The position numbers and the translations under genes were made by a program. The notes under the pieces are model-generated. The model was not told where the DNA came from. It did not search any database and worked only from the letters and a program-made list of their open reading frames with translations. 64,000 bases of DNA, from assembly GCA_002786065.1 (NCBI GenBank), contig NHNY01000001.1:1240001-1304000 (forward strand). Direction: 5' to 3'. Source of the stretch: Microcyclospora pomicola (Eukaryota; Ascomycota; Dothideomycetes; Capnodiales). Positions 8,926 to 49,444 of the stretch are shown here, in pieces; position 1 is the first letter of the stretch, and each line of letters starts with the position of its first letter.

Positions 8926-9617
8926 TGCGAGGAGAGACGGTTTCTCAAATGACCATGGGAATGGACACAGAGGACGGTTGCGGCGAATGTTTCTGAAGCC
9001 GGAGTAACGTAAAGGAACAGACCATGTACGACATCAAGGATGCCTCTGATATGCTTATAAATCGGGCGCTCTGCATGCTCCAAATTGGTAGGTAATTATA
9101 CTCGCTACGCAAGAAGCACGCAATTAGAAACGCTGCGAATTTGGTAGACACAATCAAAAGGCCTGACACATGAATTGCTGCAGTTCATATAGAGATCTAG
9201 GATTGCTCTGAACACCTTAGGAGAATGAGCTGATTCGTAGCTCTGCTGGTTTCTGCGCGGTTTCATCGACCTGTCGTCGGCAGCAAACGTCACGGGTATC
9301 CTCTTCCTTCTCGCACCATCGTAGTAGGCTGCATCGCCACGAGTCGCTGATCGCTGAGTCCGTAAGTCAAGTTTCTTGATCTGTACCGGGAAGATGATTC
9401 TTAGCACTGGAACATTGGAGGCTAGCAGATTACTGGTCGCGCATGGCGGAGTGTCGCACATCGTGGCTGCAAGCGCGGGCAGCAACGGCACGTGACCGTG
9501 ATTGTTTACCATGTTTGCCTAAAGCGGTCATCCTAGTATGTACAACACCAGATCGATGAGTCGCGCAGTCTCTTTGGCCAACTCTACAGCATCTGCCAGG
9601 ACACGACATCGCCGACC
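8926..9617. other. Divergent promoter region (reductase / BRN1)
   Basis: About 690 bases shared by two genes pointing away from each other. Short open frames here have no recognisable product. I see no repeat or clear TATA box. Confidence 0.45.
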
Positions 9618-12239
9618 ATGCCTCGTGTACGCACGAACCCTGTGCAGGACTACATGTCGCCTGTCAAGAAAACCCAGATCCCGCTCAACGATGACCGACA
9701 CGAAAAGGCGCAGCGCCTGCAATCGCGACAAGTACTGCACTCGAAGCATATGGACGAGCTCAAGGCCGCAGCATCACCACAAAGAAAGCGCAAGTCGCTA
9801 GGAGATGGGCCTCTGACGCCCAGTCAGGCGAATGAAGAATACAATGTAGCTGGAAACGCCATAACACCGATGAAGCGCGTACCACTTCTCGCCAACTTTG
9901 AAGAGTGGATGAAAATGGCCACAGACAACAAAATCAACGCGACAAATAGCTGGAATTTCGCTCTGATCGACTACTTCCATGATATGAGCTTGTTGAAGGA
10001 GGGCAATGGAGTGAACTTTCAAAAAGCCAGCTGCACGTTGGATGCATCAGTCAAGATCTACACCAGCAGAGTAGACAGTGTTGCAACAGAAACCGGGAAG
10101 CTGCTGAGTGGACTTGCAGACAGTGGCAATAAGAAGAGACGGGATGCCGATGAGCAAGAAGGTGAAGACGGTGAAGGTGACGATGATGAGGACGAAGACG
10201 GTGCAAAGAAGAAATCCAAAAAGCGAGCCCAACGATCGGCGGAGGCGACCTTGGCCAGCTCTTTCGACCAATTACGACTGAAGAAGATGGAGCTGGAATT
10301 CTCTGTCGACCCTTTATTCAAGCAGATGTCGGCAGATTTTGATGAAGGTGGCGCCAAAGGATTGTTGATGAACCATCTTTCGATCGACGGAAATGGCAGG
10401 ATTGTGTTCGATACCAGCGACGATGCTCAAGACACTTCAATTGACGATAGTCGAAGGGATAGCATGGATCCAGAAGGCGAGGAAAGCGACGAGAAAGAAA
10501 CGACTTCCCCTGAGCCAGAGCTAAAGGACGGACCCATCGACATAGCAGGTCTGGCGGCCAGATTCTTTCCAAATCTCGACAAACTTGATGAGCAAGATAT
10601 CTGTCCGTCACTAAAAACCTTCGAGCTGGGATCCGGGAGTAGCGCCCTCGACCTACCGTTCCTGAAAGCTCCCGAAGATTGGCGGAATGAGGACACGAAG
10701 ACTGGAGACGCACCTGGACAAAGCGAAGACACCCTGTCAGACGATGTTGGAGCCTTCGGAATGGATGACGGTGATGAAGGATTCGGAGGCATGGACTTGC
10801 CACTTGACACGGGTTTTGGAGAGGGTGGAGACGTCTGGGCCAAGTCCGCTGCACTAGCACAACCACAGCGGACCCAAGATCTGCTCGTGGATGGCAATGA
10901 CGAAGGTGGAGAAGTTGGCACCTTCGATACTGAAAGCAATTCATTCGGGGTTATGTTGCAGCACCGGGACCACGATCAAGAGAATATTCTAAACTACTTC
11001 GATAATGCACTCAACAAGAACTGGGCGGGACCCGAACATTGGAAGATTGCAAGGATGAAGGAAGCAAACAAGCCCGCTCAGCCGCAACGAGTGCGCAAAG
11101 AAAAGGAGCCCTTTGAGATCGATTTCGCAGCACCGATGAGCCAAGAACTGGCGACGCTGTTGTACACCACAGCAAAAGATCCCAAGACAATCAATCTTCC
11201 AAAGAACCAGCGAAGAAGCAAGACCCGGAACTTACTACCGGACGACAAGCACTTCAATTCCAAGGATTTGTTGAAGCTGTTCCTCAAACCGAAGGCAAGA
11301 ATTGGCACCAGGAGGGGTGGACATTCAACTCGACAGATCCCCGCTGACGGTGAGATCGATGAAGCATATTGGGCGGCAAATCGTGGTCCGGACATGCAGG
11401 ATGCTCCTCATCCAATGGACGACAACGGTGCGCCTGGCGGCTATGATGCGAACTTCTTCGGCGACGACAATCCATACTCTGCGGGCCACGACATGAACGA
11501 CGATGATGAATTTGCCGATGCTCACGAGATCCTGCCCAGCACCGACGATGCTGGCATAGGGCCCATTGGGCCTGGTATAGACGGCATACCGGTCAGTGCA
11601 TCACAAGGTGATGCTTTTGGAGTCAATCTAGTCACACAGTCACGACGATCACGACCAGAATATGTACAGTATGCGCGAGTCGCCAAAAAGGTGGACGTGA
11701 GGAGGCTGAAGGAAGAGATATGGCGGGGCACTGGTCTTGAAGAGCAGGTGAGTAACTTTCTTCGCGTGTGGAAATATAAAGCGTCCGCAAGCATACCAAG
11801 CACATACGACCACAGGCGACTGAGAACTGGGCATCCCGTCCGCTCTGCCATACATAAGCAGTCGACCGGCGAATTAGTAGTACGGTGGGTGACCACGTGC
11901 GAATCCTCGCTGTTGTATGTTTTGTTTTGCATCTCGAAAGTTTTGAAGAACGCCAAGCATGAAACGGTCAGCTAACATCTTCGCTAGTCTTCAACCACAC
12001 CACCAGCCAGCATCTCTCCCAAACCAGCTGATGGTTCATTACGATTCACCTCGCTCATGCGCAATCTGCAACACGTCTACCCGCAGAAAGCCATGGCAGA
12101 CATCAGCACGTCGTACGGGTTCATCTGTCTCTTACATCTTGCGAACGAGAAAGGCTTGGTCATCGAGAATGTCGAGGGTTGGCAAGATCTGACCGTGCGG
12201 AAGGACTTCACGGCTGTCGATCTGGACGTCGCGGGTTGA
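9618..12239 (+). CDS. BRN1: Condensin complex subunit 2 (Brn1/Cnd2/CAP-H)
   Basis: The kleisin subunit of condensin, which bridges Smc2 and Smc4 and is needed for chromosome compaction in mitosis. Exon 1 (9618-11747) encodes 710 residues and exon 2 (11988-12239) encodes 83, giving 793 residues. Visible family features are the N-terminal region that lists the DNA-binding and Smc2 sides (about 85-170), long acidic linkers, the central repeated Asp-rich blocks, and the C-terminal winged-helix part that begins at Val-Asp-Val-Arg-Arg-Leu-Lys and ends after the intron with Ile-Ser-Thr-Ser-Tyr-Gly-Phe-Ile. The 240-base intron is long for this window, and exon 1's frame stays open through almost all of it. 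The downstream exon was chosen because it restores the conserved end. Confidence 0.92.
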
Positions 12240-15012: not shown

Positions 15013-16720
15013 GCTTGCTGCTTAAGAGGAAAAGGAAAGGATGTTTGAGTTTGGGGTGGTTTGCAGATCACCAGATCTTGGATCGTGAAGCGCAAGATCA
15101 GACACTGAGCAAGTCGGTGTGCAGCAGACGCGGTGTCGTCAATCTCGTGATACTGGTCGTACTAAAAACGAATGGAGCAGAATTTGGAGGATGTGTAGGT
15201 GAGTCGTCAAGGTATGGTGTGAATGTATACGAGGTCAAGGATGAAGATGGGAGGTGGTTGTGGTTGTGTTTGTAGTTGTGAATTAGAGTTGTTGTTTTGA
15301 TAGAACATGCGCAGCTTACATACTGCCCAAGCCCACCAGGCGTCTCGGGCTTACTCTCCCACTTCTGCTCCCCACCACTACGGTACTCAACCACGTCTCA
15401 GGGTGCAGCAGACCACGTCCAATGACCAGACAGAACCACCTCGCACGAACCAGGACCGCCGTTTGTAGTTCAGCCCCTGCTTCTATTTAGCAACACCCGC
15501 CACGTATACATACGACGCCGCAAATTCAATACTGTCCGTCGTCCCAGAATCCAGTACATTATCGTCGTATTGCTTGTCTACCAAAGCTAGATATCAATAC
15601 AGATCTGTGCAGAGGATCTTCTGACTGCACACAGGCCAGTCGGTGGCCATGTGAGTGGCTTGGAAGCTCGCCGTGGCAACAACTCTAACCATAAAGTTGC
15701 TTAGGAGCCACGCAGCCTGTCAGGTACCGCGCCAGTGAGCTATTCTCGGTATCGCCAAGACAGGCATTTCTGAATCCTGCGTCGTCGATTATCGCCGAGC
15801 ATACTGACGGTGCCCAAACGTTCATAACTCTCGGGCCTTTTGCAATGCCGTGCACACCGGTAATCCCGGATACCGATGCCTTGAGCCCATGAGGTCACAC
15901 GAGAAGCATCCCAGATGTGGGACGGCGCTGCGTGATAACGCTGTAGCCGGTCTCCTGATGCCAATGCTATTTCAGGATTCAGGGATGGCCATGTTCTTGC
16001 AGCATTCTGACAGAACTGCAACGGGAAAGTGTATAGTCGCTGAGCCACCGTCTTATTCCCAGAACGAGTCTGTAGTGGTCTTGTTTCAGATTGGGATGAC
16101 TGTTGATCTCGTCGAGTAGGTAGGACGTTCGACGACCGAACTTTGCGAATCTACTCTGCGTTACTTGGTAACATTCTTCCTTGTCACTTCGTCCGCAAAG
16201 CCCATGAAGCGAGGTGTTTGACATGTCATGGAGAAAGTGCGCGTGCGAGATGAAGCGAAACAGGTATGTACGATCGAATGAAAATTACGTGTCTGGAATG
16301 TACCTAATCGAGGCGATATCAGTGTCAAAATGTGAGGCCAAAGTGACTGCATGTGCGGAACCTTCCCATTTGGGATTGACATCATCTTCACATGCTGGAT
16401 ATTATTTGATATCTCGCACACCCCGGTGAATGCTACATCTACATCTTGCGATCTACTCTCAAGGCGCACTGCTGAGTCGTTCTTGAAGTCGGGGATGTCT
16501 CTTCAGGAAGTCTTTGCGTGCTGGCCATCGGATCTGAGCATGTGAAAAGCTAGCCGGCTTGTTTCAATGATCCTGTCCCGCTGAACATCTCTCATGCAGT
16601 GTCTAGCCTGTAAACATCTCCGGCCAGAAGTGCCTGTCTCATGTTCTCTCAGGTGTCCGCAAGATTGCCTGGGAATTGTATTTGTACGGAGACTTGAAGA
16701 GTTGTTGGCAACACTTCAAG
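15013..16720. other. Long divergent intergenic region (GFA1 / RFX-array gene)
   Basis: About 1.7 kb with no supported gene. On the minus strand the part next to GFA1 (about 15130-15300) is rich in A, C and T with few G, as in 5' leaders of well-expressed fungal genes, so GFA1 may have a long leader. The rest holds only short open frames without recognisable domains. The promoter and possibly a 5' non-coding exon of the RFX-array gene should lie at the right-hand end. Confidence 0.45.
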
Positions 16721-19700
16721 ATGACATGGACTTTTTGGGGTGGCGGAAACAGGACGTCACAACCAACCAATTTGACACCACCTTCCAATGCTGGCAGACC
16801 CACAGACTTATTGGAAGAATCTCGAGGCCCCTCTGAGTCTCATCCCGAGGGAGTTACTCGTAATTATCTCCATGGCCAAGGAAGGTCGCGATCAGCACGG
16901 CATTCGACAAGATCATTGCTTGATGCTCGACAGTCTCAGAGCCATATGAACGATAGCAGTGACGAGAGCCAGGCTGAGGAAGTGGCAGTTGCAGTAGAAC
17001 TCGCCACTAGGGGTGAAACAGTGCCGAGCATGAAACGTAAAGTCAAGGGCAAGACCGCCAATATCTCGGAGGGCAAAAAGCGGAAGCTCGAGGCGACAGT
17101 AGATCGTCAGCCATCTGCTCAAACTCAAATAGCCAAGAAGCAAAAGGCCGGCTCGCGAGTAACCAATCCGAAACCGTCGAGGACGCGGGATCAGGTCGAA
17201 AGTGAGTACGATACAAGCAGCCAGAGCGATGAGGACGAGAGCTCCAATGCAATATCGAACGGTCGAGGCCAATCCTCTACAAGTATGGATACGGACAGCA
17301 GTGATGAGAGCGGATCTGAGGAAGAAGAAGATGATGATGACGATGAAACAGACGACGATACCAGCAGCGAGGATGATAAATACCAGTATCGCAGACCAGA
17401 CGAAGAGGAAATCATCGAGGCAGCCAAAGTGCGATCCAATCAACGTGAGAAGCTTAGAGCTCATGACCGAGCACCGGCTGAAGTCCCTGCGACCAGTACA
17501 TCTCAGGCTTTGGAGGCGAGGCTCAAACAGAGACATGATTGGTATACTACTTAATTCAAACAACGACAGGATTCCACTAACAGTATATCAGGATTGTGAC
17601 ACATGTCTGTAGACACGACGGAAAGTCAATAGCTCTGCAAGATGTTCTTGTCGTCTACAAGTATCTTTGCGCCACAGACGGTGCGGTCACCTTGAGTCGG
17701 ATACGAGTCGCTCTCAAATCAGTTTTCCCCGAGCTGAACAACACGGGAGGCCAGGGCATGTCACAATCGGTCTCCGGGTATTACTGGCAAGCATCAGCTG
17801 TCAGTGAAGTTGCTCAGATTATGATGCGTAACTGGTAGGTGGGAATAGCTGCTATATCGTGATCGCGACATATTTTGCTCACACTCATCAGGATACAGAA
17901 CAACATAATTTTTGGCCCCCAATTTTCAGGGTCACCCGAGGATTCTGCCACATGGGCTGCTTGCAAAGAAAGCTTGCACGATCTTGCAGATTTCGTGTCG
18001 TTCTCTATGTTCTTGGATATCCTTCAGCAGCTCTTTCCTGGCACAGGCGCGACGGGCTGGGGCCTGAGAACGAAGCTGCCGTCGACCCATCGTACCATAG
18101 CGACTACAGACCCGCAAAATGTCACTACATCTACAAGTCATCCCGCCGATGAGGCGACTGGGATTCCAGACATACCCCAGACTCGCTTCGAAGATGCGTT
18201 TCAAGCTTGGTATGTTCTCAGACATCGGTCGCTGGGCAATTGCGAACCTGAGCACTAATGACTCTGCAGGATTCGCGCTAATTGCGTTCACCTCAATTTT
18301 GTTACCACTAATATAAATAGAAAGAGCGTGCTCAAAGTAGCAGAGAAGCATTTCGGGCTGACAGTCAGTCAAAAGAAGTTCGATAAGGCTATCAGAGAGG
18401 TCTTCCCTGAATGTCAAGATGCGCCAGTGCAAAGCCTCTATACTGGTATCGTGACTCGGGAAGCGTTCGATAGAGCTCGCAATTTACTGGAGACCAGCGA
18501 TGTATACGAGTGGTACGCAAGCTCGCCAACAGACCGCGGGCGTGAATGCTGACCAGTGAGCAGGCTACGTAGTGTTGTGAGATACAATCATGACTCTCAA
18601 GTGCCTTATACAGCGCTACGAAAGTCGTACTTCAGCTTCTCTAAGGACTGCATAGCGCTGTCTCACTTCACTCTTGCGATAGCGCTCAAGAAAACATTCC
18701 CCAGCCTCAAAATCACGAGCCCGCAACAAGGCTCTATTGCAGCCATTGAGTTGCTTGGGAAATATGTCACGGCATCAAGCTCTCCTGCACTGATGCGAGT
18801 TCGTACTTGGTAAGTCATTGCAAAGGTCAACCTGATGTTGGACATCACTAAAGCATGTATAGGGTTCGTGCAAATTTCTTGCCCAACCCTGGAAGTTACA
18901 TCAACCCACGTGAGATGATGGAAGTGTGCCAGGTCGCTCATTCAGACGATGAACTCAACGCATCATTGCTTGATTCCGCACTCCGGTCAGAGTTCCCCGA
19001 GCTCTCTGCCGTCGATCGAGGACTGGTTCAAGGCTTGAAGCCCAATGACCTCGCAGGGTCTCGATGGAGTAGTCAGCTACTGCAACTTGGCCAACTACGG
19101 GAACAGAGACGAAATTGGTAAGACTGTTACCATTGGCATTGTCCCATATGTCCGACACTGACTGATATCAAAGGTTGCTATCACATTGTCAACAAATGAA
19201 GAACTCCAAGACACCATCCAAAATCGCGACCTTCTTCCAAATATATAAGACCTCGCATCCTGAGGACTTTGTTTCCCTGCGCGCATTCGTGCAAGAAGTA
19301 TGGAGAGTCTTTCCGTCACGAGGCAAATCCAGACATGTTGGGCTCCGCTACATTGAGAGTTCAGACGACGTGGATTCGATGGTGGCCCGTTGGTCAGTCA
19401 AACATCTGTCTGTTCTTGGCAAATCACTAATTTTCAGTACAGGATAAATGCAAGTATCGTCTACGACTCGACCTATGCACTGGACCTAGTACAGATCTAC
19501 CATGTATACCAGGCTGCTAGCCGGATTCAGGTGGTATCAATGGATGCCTTTCATTCTATGCTCAAGAAGCTCTTTCCCGACATCGACTCTGCAGATTCGA
19601 TACACTTGAGGGGTGTCAAGTACAAATCAGCTGAACCATGTGCCGCGAACTTAAGACTTACAGGGCATGTGGTGTCAGATGCTGATGCTGCTGGGAACCT

Positions 19701-20955
19701 ACAGTCAGAAAACCCTGGTCTTGTAAATGATCAAAGACTGGGATTGGTCGACGGCCAGAATCATGAGGCCGCAAGAGTGCTCACTCATGTCAAGATTGAA
19801 GATCAGAGTCTACCCGAGAATGTAAACGGAGTTCGCACGAGTCCTGTGGGCAGCGTGAATACTACCGAGACTGCACTTCCCAGTCTTCCAACTATGGAAC
19901 CAACCATCATAGCACAGAATGGTAATGTGCCAGCCGAAATTGGAACTTCAACAACAGCAGTCCTCCAAGAGACCCGTTCAGATCAGCCAGAAACAGCGGG
20001 GACGACCAAGACGACAAAGCCAACGGCCACAACTTCAGATGAGCCGCCGCAGGACCTTACTAGCCACGTTCCCCAAGTCAACCCTACGACAACACATGTC
20101 GGTGCAGATTGGTTCCGACAGTACATAATGTACGAAGCTGAGTCCGAGCTCAATATGGACGAAGCTCACAGTATGCATTCCAACGCTTGTGTTGTATCGG
20201 GAAAGCAGCCTTACACGAGGCCTATATTCAGCCGAGCGCTAGCACGTCTGTTTCCTGAGGTACGAGTCATGCAGGCTGCGTCTCATGTGCGTGGACTCAA
20301 ATTCACGATGCCGGCTCAATATCCGGCCAAGGATCGTGAGGCGCCGCTCGATCCTCAAGATGGTGAAGAAGATCTAGCTCCAGCTTCTTCAGAGCACAAA
20401 CCTCAATTCATCAAAGCAGAAACAGTTGACTTGTGCGAGGACGACAATGCAAGAGACGTACCAGCTGGTGTTTCCGGAGACATCGCGCTGTCTGAACCTA
20501 CCCACAACATCTCCACACCCGATGTTCCGCTTCCACGGTCTGCACCATCAGCGATGGCGCCGCCCGATGCAGTCCAAGTCGCAATCGGACACATCATTCT
20601 AGACTCTCCAGATCATCTGTTCTTCCACCATCACCTCAGCACCGTCATCGACGCGTGTGCGTCAATTTCTTCGAGCATTCAGGGTCTTGATGGTATGATC
20701 GATCTTGTTCAAGCCAGAGCAAAAGAGTTCGGCGTGACTCGGGATCTCTCCCGACTGAACAGGATGTTGAGAGGCGTTTGGCTACAGCGTCATGTTTCTC
20801 ACTTAGCAGAGGAGGTTCGATCATCTGAAGCCTTTGTCCAGGTCGCTGCTTCGATTCTTACGAGTGGCACTGAGCATCATGGGCCTGGTTTCGTGGAGCA
20901 AGTACTCGCAAGGGTCAGACAGGTTCCAGGCACAGACACGACGATGCCATCTTGA
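16721..20955 (+). CDS. Protein with eight tandem RFX-like winged-helix modules
   Basis: No named orthologue is recognised. I join eight exons: 16721-17541, 17592-17834, 17892-18209, 18270-18512, 18564-18809, 18863-19117, 19174-19392 and 19443-20955, giving 1,285 residues. Residues 1-273 are hydrophilic, with Lys-rich nuclear-localisation-like patches and a long Asp/Glu/Ser tract (about 165-235). Eight units follow, opening at Trp274, 355, 461, 542, 624, 709, 782 and 1005. Each has Trp-[Ile/Leu/Val/Phe], a variable stretch, a helix, then a block ending in Phe-Pro, as in RFX DNA-binding domains (and the RFX-like domains of ARID2/Rsc9). Units 7 and 8 also keep the following Arg-Gly-x-Lys-[Tyr/Phe]. 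The C-terminal 180 residues are helical. Introns are 50-60 bases with branch-like CACTAA/CTGAC sites. A nuclear DNA- or chromatin-binding role is inference. The ATG at 16721 is the first in the open frame; an upstream exon is possible. Confidence 0.8.
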
Positions 20956-38315: not shown

Positions 38316-38582
38316 AATGTCTAATGGCGAAGACGACGCAGAAGTCCTGGCCTAAGTTGTTCAACTTTCGAACCTACAAAATTTCGGGATAATAACTGTA
38401 GCTGCCCCGAAATTTTGGAAGTGTGGCGGTGCAGACGGCGGCGTCAATGCCGCTGTGGCTAAAGTCGGTTCACTCCCTTCCTCACGTAAACCGAACATAC
38501 CTCCTGTCAACGCATCAAAGCACGTTTGAAATGCGTACAACTCCGAATGTATTGCATTCAGTAGACATCGAGATGGTGCAGA

Positions 38583-40243
38583 ATGGGAAGAAGGCAATAC
38601 CTGACACGCCTGGCGCTAGGCCGCTCACCGTACCTGAATGACACTGAACAAGATGCAAGCTCCTCTCGCACGCCACCGGCGTCCAGGAGCGAGTTCGAGC
38701 CAAGCCAATATGCTCAACAATATGATGCAAAGGGCCGACCAGTCAACTCACACGTTGAAACGGAAAGGGCAAAAATGCGCGATGCACAGAACTCTGTCTT
38801 GGCCCTGGTTGGTGTGGTAGAAGATCGCAGCAGCAAAGAGCAAGAGGTAGCTAAGCGAGTCAAGCACATTAAGAATGAACGACGTAAGGTGCTTGTAGCA
38901 GAGACCGACTTTGGCGAAGAGCTTGATCTAGCAGCGAGCGTTGCTCGATCACTCGGTCTATGGTTTGCGGAGAGCCTGATGATGCGTTTCCAGATTGGTT
39001 TCTTCGAGTCAAATTGGTCGTTCATGGATGTGGTCTGGATGGAAGCACGACGAGCAAGAGGCAGTGGTTGGAGAGGCCTCATGGGAGTCCTGGTACCCGG
39101 TGCGCCTTGTTATCTTCTCCATCAGACTGTACGAGCGGGATTGGCATTCGGTGCTGAACTCATCACGGACTCGGTGCAGAAGCTTGTTATCCGACAACCA
39201 GGACTTCGCTATAGAACGGCAAAGACGATACGTCGTATATGTGATGTTTTTCTCGTGGTCTCAATGGCGGCCATAGACGTTGCTTTGCTACCCTTCGAAT
39301 ATCACACCACGGTACAGATGCTTGGTCTTCAACCGAGCACTACCTGGTTCCCACCACTCCAGGCATTCTTCCCGAGGACGCCGAACGCAATGCAACAGGC
39401 TCTATTGCGACCCTACATCGGCACGCCTATATTAAGCTACGCAGCCTTGCCAAGATGTCTGCTTCTGCTAAGATGCACTCTTTTCCGAGATCTGGCCGAT
39501 CCAACCTCACTGGTTGCCTTGATAACCTCTTTTCGCTACCCCACCATAAACGATTGTTTCCGACGCTCTGTTTTGGAAGAACAGCAGCAACCAAAATTCT
39601 GGAACGATCCCCTAGGCTACACATTGCAGCAAGCTCTGAATCTACGCATAATCTTTACAAGCTGGTGTGGCTGGAATGTAAGCACTTCTGAGACATCGCG
39701 ACGTGGTAATGGTACGCTCGAGAACGATATGAGTGTCGAGCGACATCAAGACGGCAGTATCAGCGAGCATCAACATCGAGCAACGTCATTGGCACACCTG
39801 GTTCCCACCTTCCTAGCGGTCAGCGTAGACCAGCTCCTGCAAAGTGTGCTTTTGTTGCCGTTCGACATATTTACAATGCGGATAGTTACAGCTTCATTCA
39901 TGGCTTCACCATTCGTAAAGTCGCTCGGAGCTTTGACAGGAGAGCGCCATCTCAGTCACCCGTTCGACGCTTTGATGTACTCACATGACACCTCTGTTCC
40001 TGCTTCGCAGATATTGGGCAAATTCGCAAGCAATATCGGCTTGAGTCTCGCTTTACAGGCTTCTACGCATGCAGTCTTCTTCGCTGGTGTCTACAGAGTA
40101 AGTCGTTACTTTGGAGTTCGAGGCTTCGATTGGGGATCACGATGCAAGATTGGCACTATTGTAAGTATATGCTTCGCCTTTCGATGAGTGTAGAACGCTC
40201 ACACCTGTCTCAGTCATATACCTTCCCATTCAAAACCGAATGA
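38583..40243 (+). CDS. Conserved-looking membrane protein of unknown function
   Basis: I do not recognise this gene. Exon 1 is 38583-40160, an intron (40161-40213) follows, and exon 2 (40214-40243) adds nine residues, giving 535. The N-terminal 120 residues are hydrophilic, with a charged helical stretch. Hydrophobic segments occur near residues 155-200, 218-240, 285-305, 415-440 and 480-505. Small motifs such as Trp-Arg-Gly-Leu-Met-Gly-Val-Leu-Val-Pro-Gly vaguely recall mitochondrial carrier repeats, but the threefold carrier signature is not visible. The second exon was chosen because it follows a good GT/AG pair and ends promptly. It is divergent from RRP9, 270 bases apart, and converges on the MFS gene. 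Confidence 0.7.
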
Positions 40244-45016: not shown

Positions 45017-47855
45017 TCATGGCGGCAAGCGCAGAAACGGGAGCAGGAAGCGCGCGACCAGCCGCGAGGTGTAGATACACTGGTTTTCGGGCTTGAATGT
45101 CACATCACGGCGAGCCTGTAGGTGAGACGCTGGTCGTGTTCTCAGTATCGAGCAACGGAAAAGCGTCAGGGAGCAACGAGGTAAACTTACCATTCTCGAC
45201 GACGGAGTTGTACAGATCGCGCAGGAAGGCTTGCGCATGCGGATCCCTGAGCTCCGGGGTGGCGTTGCCGAAACTGCCGCGCGACCATTTACGGTCGCGA
45301 TACTTGTTCTGGAACAGCTGGACGAGGAAGGTGTACCGCTCATCGATGCGCGCGCAGGCGTTCTCGGCTTCTTGGTTCGCCGCTTCGGCGGTCATTTCAC
45401 CCTTGGAGATCTTCGCGTCGGCTTGCAGGATGATGGTGTGCTGGGCTTCTTCGAGCACCATGGCGAAGCCGAGCATGACGCAGAAGGCGGGCAGCCAGGT
45501 GGACTCACGTTGCTTGCTGGAGTGGAGCGTCTGCTGCTGCCAGCACAGGATGTTATTGTAGATGATGCCACGCAGAATGCTGAAGAAGAACTTCAGCTGG
45601 CGATTGGCGAGACGTGGAGAGGTGAAAGGCTGTTGGGTACTAGGGACGCCCGTGTGGCTGATGGAGTTCATGACGGTGAAGAAGTCGTCTTCTTCGATGG
45701 TCAGCGTGTGGCCCATGATATAGGTGATGGCCATCATGCGAATGATCTTCTGAAGAACACCTTGGAGCTGAAAATCTGTGTCAGCTCACGACTCAGTGTG
45801 CATACATACGTGAAAACTTACGTCGTCATCATTGGTGTTCATGTACAGTCTACACATGGAGTGGAGCATTCTTGCTTGAAACCCGTTGGTCTGTGACTCT
45901 TCTTCAAAGCACGTCCAGCCAAAGTCGTTAAGATGCTCTGGCTGGAGCGCACGATCGAGATACGACTCTGCGCGTATCTGATCTGCGGTATCAAGGTGCA
46001 GCAGTCCGAGTGGCGGTGAATACTTGGTTAAACGTAGAGTCATCCCCTGCTTGTCCTGTCTGTACTGATACTGGCCGAGCAGCTCCATTGTTCTCGGAAC
46101 AAACTCGTACACATGCCATTCCAGGGGCGGACCATAGCCGCATGTCAAACGTATATCGATGCGTTTGTGCTTCTCCCAGCGCGAGACCTGGTCTTTGACA
46201 CAATCTTCTATGCTTTGCTTCTGATGCATCAAGGTCATTGATGCTGTGTGACGATGTCAGCAGTCATTATAATGTACGTACGGAGATGTGTAGTGGCTGA
46301 ACTTACGAGGCAGGAAATCGAGCACAAGGTCTGGAAGCTTAAGACGTGCGCACGGGAAGTAATAAAGCGTGCCTTTTCGTGCTTTGGTTTTACAACGCGC
46401 GCAGGGCGTACCCTCGTCCGGACACTAAATGAGCACATATCAGCACGGTGACGACACAAATGCCGAGCAGTAACCACCCACAGGATCTCTCTGGAAGACG
46501 CATCCCCAGCACGCGCCTGTCTTTCGCATTTGGGAACTCTTGACACGGGCATTTGGGGACAAGGGTTTGTGCTTCTCTCTTCCACCTCGGCGTGCTGTTG
46601 CGCGATCGGTCTGTGACAACCGGCCAGGAAGACGCTGACCAGGTACAGCTGGTTGGAGTGGTCGCGCAGCGGCGTTGTTTGGAGTGAGGTTTGCAGCGGC
46701 AGTGTTGATCTGATGTTGTTGATGCCGGCTCCTGGTCGCCAGTGATGTGACACTTCTGTGATGAGGTGCTCCTGATGTGAACGCTGGTGCTGAGTCGTGA
46801 AGCACAGGTGGCGCCCGCATGTCCTCGTCTTGTCTGGATGTATCGTGGATGTCACTGACACCGACGGGCAGTTGAGTGGTGTTGAACTGATTGTAGCCAT
46901 GATTGCTTGATATTAGGCCCAGAAGAGTCTGCTGTGTCGTATCATGCGCCGGTCGCACTTGATGATACGGCAGTACATTGTCGTGCGCATGGTATGTCCC
47001 ACCATCAACGTTCAGAACATTGGCAGCTTGAAATTGTCCGAGTAGGTAGGCCGATGTCACATCGCTGTGGTTTGCGCGGTGCACAGAAACATTACCATCA
47101 AAAGTCTGCGCGAAAGTGCCGTCCAAGTTGTCACAACCTGCCAGTGGATCAGGGTCATAGTCGCCAGAAGCATAATCTGTCGGCATGAAGCCTGGGACCA
47201 TGTGCGTATCAGCGTGGCCGAATCGGCCGACATTGTGGTCTTTCATCCATCCGCCAGTGGCTGAGGTCGATGCAAGAGACGACCACGGCTGATGCTGTTG
47301 AGCGAGGGACGGGAAGACAGACGGAGACGGGGACTTGGGATCGGAGGATGTCACCCATGAAGAGAGTGGGGGCGGATTTTGGTCCACACTGCGACGATCA
47401 CCCCCCGAGTCACTGCTCATGCTGTTGAGCAAGACATAACTGCCAGTGGAGGGACTGGCGTGGATGATCGGATCTGTCTGCTCTTCATCAGGGTGTTCAC
47501 GAGAGTCAGTGGGATGGTCATCATAAAGCCCCGAGCCAGATCCGGGAGTGTAGACAAGTGAAGCAGTATGTGGAGAGATTGAAACGGATCTGGCACTGTT
47601 GCTACCACTACACCGTTCTGAGCTGGACTTGTTCGGCGACTCCGTGACCTGGGATGGAGCATGATGGGCAGGGCCGACGACCAGCGACGGATCAACGTGG
47701 TGCGGGAAATCAGGGAACTCTGACAATGAGGGCCTGCCTCTGGTCATGTCTGTGAGATCTGGCAGTGCAGAAAAAGCAGAGAGGAATTCGTCGTCGGTCA
47801 GAAGAGGACTGTCGAGGTCGAACGGACGCAAGCAAGGCATGGCCATTGACGCCAT
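45017..47855 (-). CDS. Zinc-cluster transcription factor with central, variant zinc domain
   Basis: I assemble five exons: 47855-46482, 46424-46307, 46243-45822, 45767-45191 and 45129-45017, giving 867 residues. Residues 1-440 are Ser/Pro/Gln-rich and disordered. The zinc domain is in the middle: Cys449, 452, 459, 466, 469 and 483, interrupted by an intron after Pro458. The spacing fits a Zn2Cys6 domain except that the last gap is 13 residues instead of about 6-8. The C-terminal part is helical and resembles the regulatory half of some fungal factors with this cluster form (inference). The first ATG in the open frame is at 47855; the frame stays open upstream to a GTG at 48083. The target genes are unknown. 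Confidence 0.84.
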
Positions 47856-49444
47856 CTTGAGCGAGGCCGACTCCGACAACAATGATGGCTCTAGCCCTGG
47901 CCGGTGAGCAGATAACGCTACGCTTCGCGACAGTGGACGCCGCAACGGCGCATCGAAAGTTGCTGTGGTTCGGTTGCCACAACGGATTGCAACTGGTGCG
48001 GGAACACAGAAGGTTCGCGTTCGATCCTTTGGCGGGTCAGACGATGACCCGAATGATCTTTGCGAAAGGTGTGACTGAGGCACACGAACAGACCGGTGAA
48101 AGATGAGCGGCTGAAATTGGGACTCTTATGCCTGGCCGGTGAAAGCAGTTGGGGACACCTCGGTACAGATCCAGTCTCAGGCCTGGGGATATGGACTTCT
48201 TGACCCTGTCCACGAAGTATTCGGCCTGTTGGTGGAGAGGAAATGTGTAGCCTATGTAGCTACAGGAAGAGTGGGAACATTTACACAAGGTGCAGTCAAT
48301 GTGTCCGACGAGAACGTGTCGTGGGGGAGGTGCCGTAGTGTGCGACCAGGCTGCGAGGCAGTGCACGACAGTCGGCCAGTAGAACTACTCTATAGGTTGG
48401 TACCGTAGTTATGCGGAGTGACAACAGCAACCTCGTCTGTACATCCAAGTACTCGTCCACAGCCACAATCCCATAAGATACAACGATCTACCTTTGCCCT
48501 TGCTCGAGTGTTCCCACACCACCACGATGCACGACACACCGGGTCTTCTGCAGAGGTGCCTGGCCGGAGACTTGCTCCCAGGTCCGTCTGACGATCGAGC
48601 TATGGTCGATCAATGCCGACGAGTCTTACGAGACCTAGCACTGCCTCCACCGACCCTGCTGGATGACGAGGAAGTTCGCAATGCTGCCGATATGTAGAAG
48701 GGATGATTGCTATATGGCCATATGCTTTACATTCTGCTCCCTACCGATTGGCAATGTTGTCCACCTCCAGAGCATCCCCCGCCACATACGCAGGGTCATT
48801 TTCATCGCCGTGCTCATCACCCCAACCACAAACTATTCATAACCATACCACTGCACCATGCTTGTTCCCAACGAGTCGGTCAAGCATCAATAGTACCGTA
48901 ACAGGAGCGGACTCCAGAAATCGCAACCTGTTTCGTGTCGCCACGGCCAGGCAGAGTGATCGATTACCTGTCCCACGGCAGTCCCAGCATTGACCTCAGC
49001 CGAGCGGCTCTCCGTCACCGAACATAACCAGCTTTCCAACAATTTCACCCTCACTTCCTAGGGTCGACAGTTTCCAAGTTTGAAATGCCGAAAGTCCATG
49101 CTTTGGTGTCATCTGCCTTCGTGTTTCTTGCTGAACGTGTGTAGGATTACGCTGCTTTCCCCATCATATGACGTAGCCTTGACACTGCTGTCCGGTGTTT
49201 GGACGAAGCTTCCACCATCACACCTTGCCTATGCTTCCGCCAAGCAACGCACAGTTGGTCTTCACCCGTCGTATATCGTGCTTTGCTGGCTTGGAAAGAT
49301 ACCAGGTGTCGAACTTTGTGTCCAGCAAAAGCTGCTTGGTCAAGTGATTCTTACCTATGAGCACCACAGGTCGTTGAATTTGCTTGCTGGGCAAGCTTGA
49401 ATTGACGATCGACAACCCACTGCATCAATTACTACTGTAGCAGA
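47856..49444. other. Long divergent intergenic region
   Basis: About 1.6 kb between the zinc-cluster gene and the SMP-C2 gene. Short open frames (for example 48494-48697) have no recognised product. It is about as long as the 15.0-16.7 kb gap, and both long gaps border putative regulatory genes. Confidence 0.4.

Follow-up and report, generated by a model that had tools for sequence, protein, structure and literature searches.

Eight probably RFX-like units in one predicted protein of Microcyclospora pomicola, with introns that suggest repeated exon duplication

A 64,000-nucleotide stretch of the Microcyclospora pomicola genome (positions 1,240,001 to 1,304,000 of contig NHNY01000001.1, assembly GCA_002786065.1; hereafter the window) contains, at 16721-20955, a spliced plus-strand gene whose predicted product of 1285 amino acids carries eight tandem units very probably homologous to the RFX DNA-binding domain. 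Sequence comparison gives good support for a protein chain that holds many RFX-like domain copies and whose introns record their multiplication. To our knowledge, RFX-like domains come as single copies, in X-box readers or in chromatin remodelers, and no protein with several RFX domains was found among the titles and abstract openings listed in searches of an open-licence library. With the Trp-codon intron of an RFX gene at its units, the array would clearly exemplify how copying of a DNA-binding exon can build a repeat protein, and the intron would reveal where the exon came from. Such an array would also allow direct tests of the role of an RFX-like domain once the DNA-reading wing has been lost, and of whether winged helices turn into protein-binding repeats.

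Gene structure and mutual homology of the units

Splicing and translation of the gene region, with exons joined as 16721-17541, 17592-17834, 17892-18209, 18270-18512, 18564-18809, 18863-19117, 19174-19392, and 19443-20955, gave an uninterrupted frame from an ATG at 16721 to a stop codon ending at 20955. The start codon was taken as the ATG that reproduces the residue numbering of an original prediction made from the unannotated sequence, and this assignment is provisional. That prediction had placed an array of eight units at 17540..20320; the array does lie there, and the gene reaches well past both ends. The eight leading Trp residues that it named (274, 355, 461, 542, 624, 709, 782, and 1005) were recovered at identical positions in the spliced translation. 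The features of the gene are as follows, where P0003 denotes a 301-residue metagenome protein, the only relative found.

16721..20955, plus strand: complete gene from start to stop codon, eight exons, 1285 amino acids, from splicing and translation
16721..17541, plus strand: exon 1, N-terminus that looks disordered (net charge -14), closing with the TG of Trp274
17030..17149, plus strand: basic clusters in the translation (KRKVKGK, KKRKLE, KKQK), putative nuclear localization signals
17297..17380, plus strand: acidic tract in the translation, rich in Asp, Glu, and Ser, ends approximate
17542..17591, plus strand: intron 1, splitting TG|G of Trp274
17592..17834, plus strand: exon 2, unit 1 (Trp274), 243 nucleotides (nt)
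17835-17891, plus strand: intron 2, splitting TG|G of Trp355
17892..18209, plus strand: exon 3, unit 2 (Trp355), 318 nt
18210-18269, plus strand: intron 3, splitting TG|G of Trp461
18270..18512, plus strand: exon 4, unit 3 (Trp461), 243 nt, where the Pfam PF02257 match is best
18513-18563, plus strand: intron 4, splitting TG|G of Trp542
18564..18809, plus strand: exon 5, unit 4 (Trp542), 246 nt, weakest unit by shuffles in the leave-one-out comparison
18810-18862, plus strand: intron 5, splitting TG|G of Trp624
18863..19117, plus strand: exon 6, unit 5 (Trp624), 255 nt
19118-19173, plus strand: intron 6, splitting TG|G of Trp709
19174..19392, plus strand: exon 7, unit 6 (Trp709), 219 nt
19393-19442, plus strand: intron 7, splitting TG|G of Trp782
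19443..19650, plus strand: start of exon 8, unit 7 (Trp782)
19651..20109, plus strand: linker joining units 7 and 8, of low complexity by eye
20110..20328, plus strand: unit 8 (Trp1005), its Trp codon uninterrupted; identical to P0003 at 31 of 68 aligned positions
20572..20952, plus strand: C-terminal domain, unmatched in Pfam; identical to P0003 at 86 of 127 aligned positions

Intron ends were picked by eye, after which the frame-keeping GT..AG pairs (40-130 nt) near each were enumerated, giving 1, 5, 3, 8, 3, 1, and 6 pairs for introns 1 to 7, respectively. The modeled introns are 50-60 nt long. Introns 2-6 each offer a GTRNG donor, and in every case the model uses it; the donors of introns 1 and 7 do not fit GTRNG, and for intron 1 the modeled pair is the sole frame-keeping pair. 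A CTRAY branch motif is present in six of the seven introns, intron 2 being the one without. Retention of any of introns 1-6 would introduce an in-frame stop, and retention of intron 7 (50 nt) would shift the frame. As judged from these splice signals and the reading frame, the gene is probably spliced as modeled; against the exact splice model stand introns 4 and 5, at which alternative acceptors are possible.

Units 1-7 are contiguous, and unit 8 is set apart by the linker of ~150 residues. In the eight-row alignment of the units, the invariant columns were the leading Trp, the Phe-Pro pair, and a late Gly, and the other units were 15-22% identical to unit 1. The residue after this Gly is hydrophobic or aromatic in seven of the eight units and Lys in unit 4. 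The predicted F-x(7)-FP signature or close variants thereof were recovered: FP occurs in all eight units, and the residue eight positions before its Phe is itself Phe in five of them (units 2, 3, 6, 7, and 8); units 4 and 5 have Leu there, and unit 1 has Ile.

For a leave-one-out comparison, a profile built from seven units was scored on the eighth and on 1000 shuffles of it with the leading Trp fixed; 790-989 shuffles per unit received a score, and the remainder were counted as below the real score. Units 1 to 8 scored 23.0, 9.1, 16.6, 7.6, 14.7, 9.6, 30.9, and 7.4 bits, with 0, 0, 0, 4, 0, 0, 0, and 1 shuffles, respectively, at or above the real score. Since the leave-one-out profiles beat the shuffles, the eight units are, by sequence similarity, mutually homologous, units 4 and 8 least surely. 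No ninth unit was detected when the unit profile was run over 2360 six-frame fragments of the window and of 12 loci (L001-L012); beyond the array's own units, which were also seen in the overlapping loci L002-L005, all matches had E values of at least 0.18.

RFX-like identity and the intron record

The Pfam family RFX_DNA_binding (PF02257) scored 29.5 bits over the protein as a whole (E 1.2e-6), above the cut-off of 27, with no single stretch passing. When the unit profile was compared with 177,635 distinct Protein Data Bank (PDB) sequences, counting matches up to E 10, the best match was RFX5 (E 3.6e-4), ahead of two for ARID2 (E 0.074 and 0.15); RFX5 was the only match significant by itself, ARID2 not being so, and the last three of the six matches were unrelated proteins (E 0.2, 0.76, and 0.95). 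With the P0003 unit added as a ninth row, the same three entries were the sole PDB matches, at weaker E values of 0.0057, 0.23, and 0.45. A control profile of reversed units found neither RFX5 nor ARID2 in the PDB, giving two unrelated matches with E above 1. The unit profile scored 16.4 bits on the domain of the organism's own RFX gene, 26.4 on the RFX5 fragment, 19.0 on the ARID2 fragment, and 25.3 on the P0003 unit, each score being reached by 0 of 2000 shuffles. In one hhalign comparison, the units matched 45 distinct RFX domains with a probability of 83% (E 9.1e-6); these 45 derived from 68 domains extracted from 120 RFX proteins (the best 120 of 745 matched, which are the RFX relatives used throughout), the other 52 proteins having been dropped as unfit for the extraction pattern.

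Several results weigh against an RFX-type assignment. No unit reached the cut-off in single-unit Pfam scans; the sole RFX match there, a weak one, was to unit 3 (E 0.19). With the RFX profile alone, the real scores of units 1 to 8 were reached by 1, 18, 7, 26, 169, 1, 11, and 22 of 1000 shuffles, respectively, so that unit 5 was not significant and most others were weak. The domain of the organism's own Rsc9-like gene scored 5.3 bits with the unit profile, a value reached by 7 of 2000 shuffles and the weakest of the five scored. In the six-frame scan of 2360 fragments, the organism's own RFX gene, lacking its leading Trp there, was found at E 0.27-0.32 (6.4-6.7 bits), no better than the best chance fragment at E 0.18. 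After the FP pair, moreover, several units appear by eye closer to ARID2 and Rsc9 than to RFX. The RFX-like identity given in the original prediction is supported by sequence and by intron position, and not by any unit passing the Pfam cut-off alone. Taken together, an eight-unit array with RFX-like homology is very probable, and its units would be expected to adopt a winged-helix fold. Weak single-unit Pfam matches to HTH_57 and HTHP were taken as chance, and a phmmer search of the PDB with the whole protein gave 19 matches, the lowest E value being 0.44, each confined to acidic sequence around residues 151-263 and therefore regarded as compositional.

The introns provide a second line of evidence. 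Each of the seven interrupts, as TG|G, the codon for the Trp that opens one of units 1-7; in unit 8 this codon is intact. The six internal exons measure 243, 318, 243, 246, 255, and 219 nt, all six divisible by three. The marks by which exon duplication is recognized, namely, units coinciding with exons, a common intron codon and phase, and exon lengths in multiples of three, were all found. A profile search of the organism's own genome located a single PF02257 place (98 bits), the canonical RFX gene (L006, G000:C34:1002000-1007500), in which an intron, its ends also picked by eye, splits the TG|G codon of the domain's leading Trp at the same codon and phase.

A similar signature appeared among the 120 RFX relatives. 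At the Trp position, 72 had Trp, 33 had Arg, and one each had Leu, Met, and Gln; 11 started too late, and in 1 the anchor was absent. The residues preceding Arg differ from the usual LFAML run, and entry P0109 has the LFAML run and Trp, then 14 unrelated residues, and then Arg. Because AG|G read through an intron end gives Arg, the 33 Arg entries would be unspliced calls over a common intron; most simply, then, 33 of the 120 entries carry the same intron signature, as read from their protein sequences. Apparent translated intron residues, at the start of an entry or within it but ahead of the DNA-binding domain, were often seen, with loss of the leading Trp, as in P0109, P0027, P0036, P0038, and other entries.

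The organism's own Rsc9-like gene (ARID, E 6.5e-14; domain matching RSC9 of PDB entry 6k15, E 2.9e-10) has a frame that runs continuously across the Trp, with no intron. Since the Trp-codon intron is common to the organism's own RFX gene and absent in the Rsc9-like gene, an RFX-type ancestor is favored. The shared Trp-codon introns, the exons divisible by three, and the intron of the organism's own RFX gene suggest that the array grew by repeated duplication of one exon from an RFX-type gene.

Candidate functions of the array

The wing motif is the DNA-contacting part of the RFX domain, and the motif RRLGxRGxxxYHY, taken from the organism's own RFX gene, was absent from all eight units. Extensive major-groove contacts by strands 2 and 3 and wing W1 of hRFX1 are described in part of one report (PMC8998557), and the DNA-contact residues of RFX domains are reported, in a passage of another, to be largely invariant (PMC10530576). 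Net charges over 66 residues were +2, -3, +4, +5, -5, +4, -1, and +2 for units 1 to 8, respectively, compared with +9 for the organism's own RFX domain (71 residues), +4 for its Rsc9 domain, and, among the fragments, +4 for ARID2 and +3 for RFX5, the latter being without the wing. The N-terminus is acidic, with a net charge of -14 over 273 residues, and its basic clusters look, from the translation, like nuclear localization signals.

Among Pfam matches up to E 10, the window protein had neither the BCD domain (PF25340), which is present in the organism's own RFX gene (E 1.1e-23), nor an ARID domain; the four ARID places found in the genome are all on other contigs. Armadillo and zinc-finger matches were likewise absent from the Pfam results for this protein. 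One of the ARID places (L008, G000:C10:311389-311643) lies in a short frame near SH3-like and zinc-finger-like coding stretches (by eye), which is unusual company.

We tentatively propose, at a little less than an even chance, that the protein is a nuclear, multivalent scaffold in which eight diverged RFX-like winged-helix domains would act on chromatin. The more basic units 3, 4, and 6 may contact DNA with no strict sequence selectivity, and the neutral or acidic units 2, 5, and 7, together with the conserved C-terminal domain, would bind proteins. This reading is preferred because the wing motif is absent, ARID2 and Rsc9 domains occur in remodelers, and the acidic N-terminus carries clusters resembling nuclear localization signals. 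Two points count against it: protein binding is deduced from the loss of DNA-contact features alone, and the RFX5 and ARID2 fragments are hardly more basic than some of the units; with those fragments at only +3 and +4, charge alone is therefore not decisive. The original prediction had offered two functions, the reading of a long or repeated DNA site and a protein-binding scaffold. The missing wing and charges of -5 to +5 weaken the former, and the latter is preferred.

Like RFX transcription factors of the RFX1 type (PF02257 plus the BCD domain PF25340), the units have a Trp start, a hydrophobic helix pattern, an F...FP helix, and, as in the organism's own RFX gene, an intron in the leading Trp codon; unlike these factors, the protein has eight units rather than one, lacks the RRLGxRG...YHY wing, has no BCD domain found, and is less basic than the organism's own RFX domain. 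The RFX-like domain of ARID2 and Rsc9 resembles the array in being a diverged RFX-like domain and in the Gly-hydrophobic-basic ending after FP, which several units share; ARID2 and Rsc9 differ in having one such domain in a protein with an ARID, and the organism's own Rsc9-like gene is separate and has no Trp-codon intron. TFIIIC tau138 and RNA polymerase III C82 carry several winged helices per chain, with roles that are largely structural plus nucleic-acid contacts. The array would resemble them in having several winged helices per chain and differs in winged-helix family.

An array that reads sequence, its units lying side by side on a long or repeated DNA site as in multi-finger proteins, is unlikely: the RFX-type homology and the net charges of +4 to +5 in units 3, 4, and 6 would fit it, but the wing motif is missing from every unit, units 2, 5, and 7 are net negative, and the unit exons vary in length from 219 to 318 nt. 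About as unlikely is a place for the protein in a SWI/SNF-type remodeler, as an accessory subunit or one specific to fungi, with the array acting like the RFX-like domain of Rsc9 or ARID2 near exit DNA. ARID2 and Rsc9 domains belong to chromatin remodelers (passages of PMC9741621 and PMC6959994), the Rsc9 RFX-like domain being likely part of the RSC tail (PMC6959994), and for PBAF, an unassigned density touching DNA past the exit site is described as possibly the RFX-like domain of ARID2 and/or a zinc finger (PMC9741621). Within the array itself, the Gly-hydrophobic-basic ending after FP in units 5-8 is, by eye, as in ARID2 and Rsc9 and unlike the RFX wing, and ARID2 supplied the second and third PDB matches, not significant by themselves. 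Against a remodeler part stand the lack of any ARID, armadillo, or zinc-finger match, the separate Rsc9-like gene whose Trp has no intron, and the position of its domain as the weakest of the five scored with the unit profile.

It is very unlikely that the gene is weakly constrained or decaying, with the array persisting by chance and without set function; the low identity of the units to unit 1 and the absence of both the Trp and the Pro of FP from the P0003 unit 8 point that way, but an open frame of 1285 codons spans seven introns, and identity to P0003 is retained in unit 8 and, above all, in the C-terminal domain. More improbable still is that the units are not RFX-like and form a convergent, undescribed helical repeat family. 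Such a family would account for single units going unrecognized by Pfam and for the chance-level score of the Trp-less RFX gene; Pfam, the PDB profile search, the domain scores, the intron of the organism's own RFX gene, and the signature in 33 of 120 relatives agree against it, and the reversed control was clean.

A broader and distinctly doubtful idea is that the array represents a new protein class in which the DNA-binding exon of a transcription factor has been multiplied, each internal exon encodes one complete winged-helix unit, and a varying unit number would tune long-range chromatin or DNA contact. An internal exon could be skipped, gained, or lost without a change of frame, so different transcripts or species could carry different numbers of units.

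Relatives and surroundings of the gene

The metagenome protein P0003 matched the end of exon 8 (E 1.6e-68; 47% over 56%). In the exon-8 search, 8000 candidates were scored, under length limits that left out full-length proteins, so that orthologs in annotated fungi could be missed. Besides the identities given for unit 8 and the C-terminal domain, 20 of 80 aligned residues were identical in the linker, so that among these three parts the C-terminal domain (20572-20952) is the best conserved. This domain had no Pfam match in either of the two sequences, and its four PDB matches had a best E value of 0.51; it may form the functional core or serve in dimerization or in binding a partner. A whole-protein homolog search scored on residues 260-1090, a range that leaves out the C-terminal domain, gave no match at E <= 1e-3 among 7999 candidates. 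When the exon-8 alignment was run against bacterial and archaeal genomes and viral contigs, 80 and 32 stretches, respectively, matched the pattern, none of them a relative by tblastn.

Within the organism's own genome, an 810-residue array query, run exon by exon with few candidates, found the gene itself and no second array. The PF02257 search of this genome found the RFX gene only and missed the array gene, and diverged arrays could escape likewise. Among the best 120 of 745 RFX matches, the nearest named entry came from Meristemomyces frigidus (97% over a 75-residue stretch), and one entry bears a plant name; the named best matches are from what we take to be fungi, mostly Dothideomycetes.

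Thirteen of the 19 open frames of at least 250 amino acids in the window were scanned against Pfam. The neighboring genes so identified included ZNF598-like, sodium/calcium exchanger, condensin subunit 2, SIS/glutamine-amidotransferase, and nitronate monooxygenase genes, and further SRP40-like, synaptojanin-like, Sec10/F-box, WD40, MFS, and F-box/LRR genes; no transposon families were among the matches listed for these 13 frames (25 of the 29 matches in the case of one frame). The condensin subunit 2 (Cnd2) gene occupies one frame upstream of the array gene, at 9537-11972. Two long open frames, 46443-48125 (561 amino acids) and 38565-40184 (540 amino acids), had no Pfam match at E <= 0.001. 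GC content ranged from 0.49 to 0.56 across the window (32 bins of 2 kb), and the two bins over the array (16001-20000), at 0.494 and 0.492, were the lowest of the 32 by a small difference.

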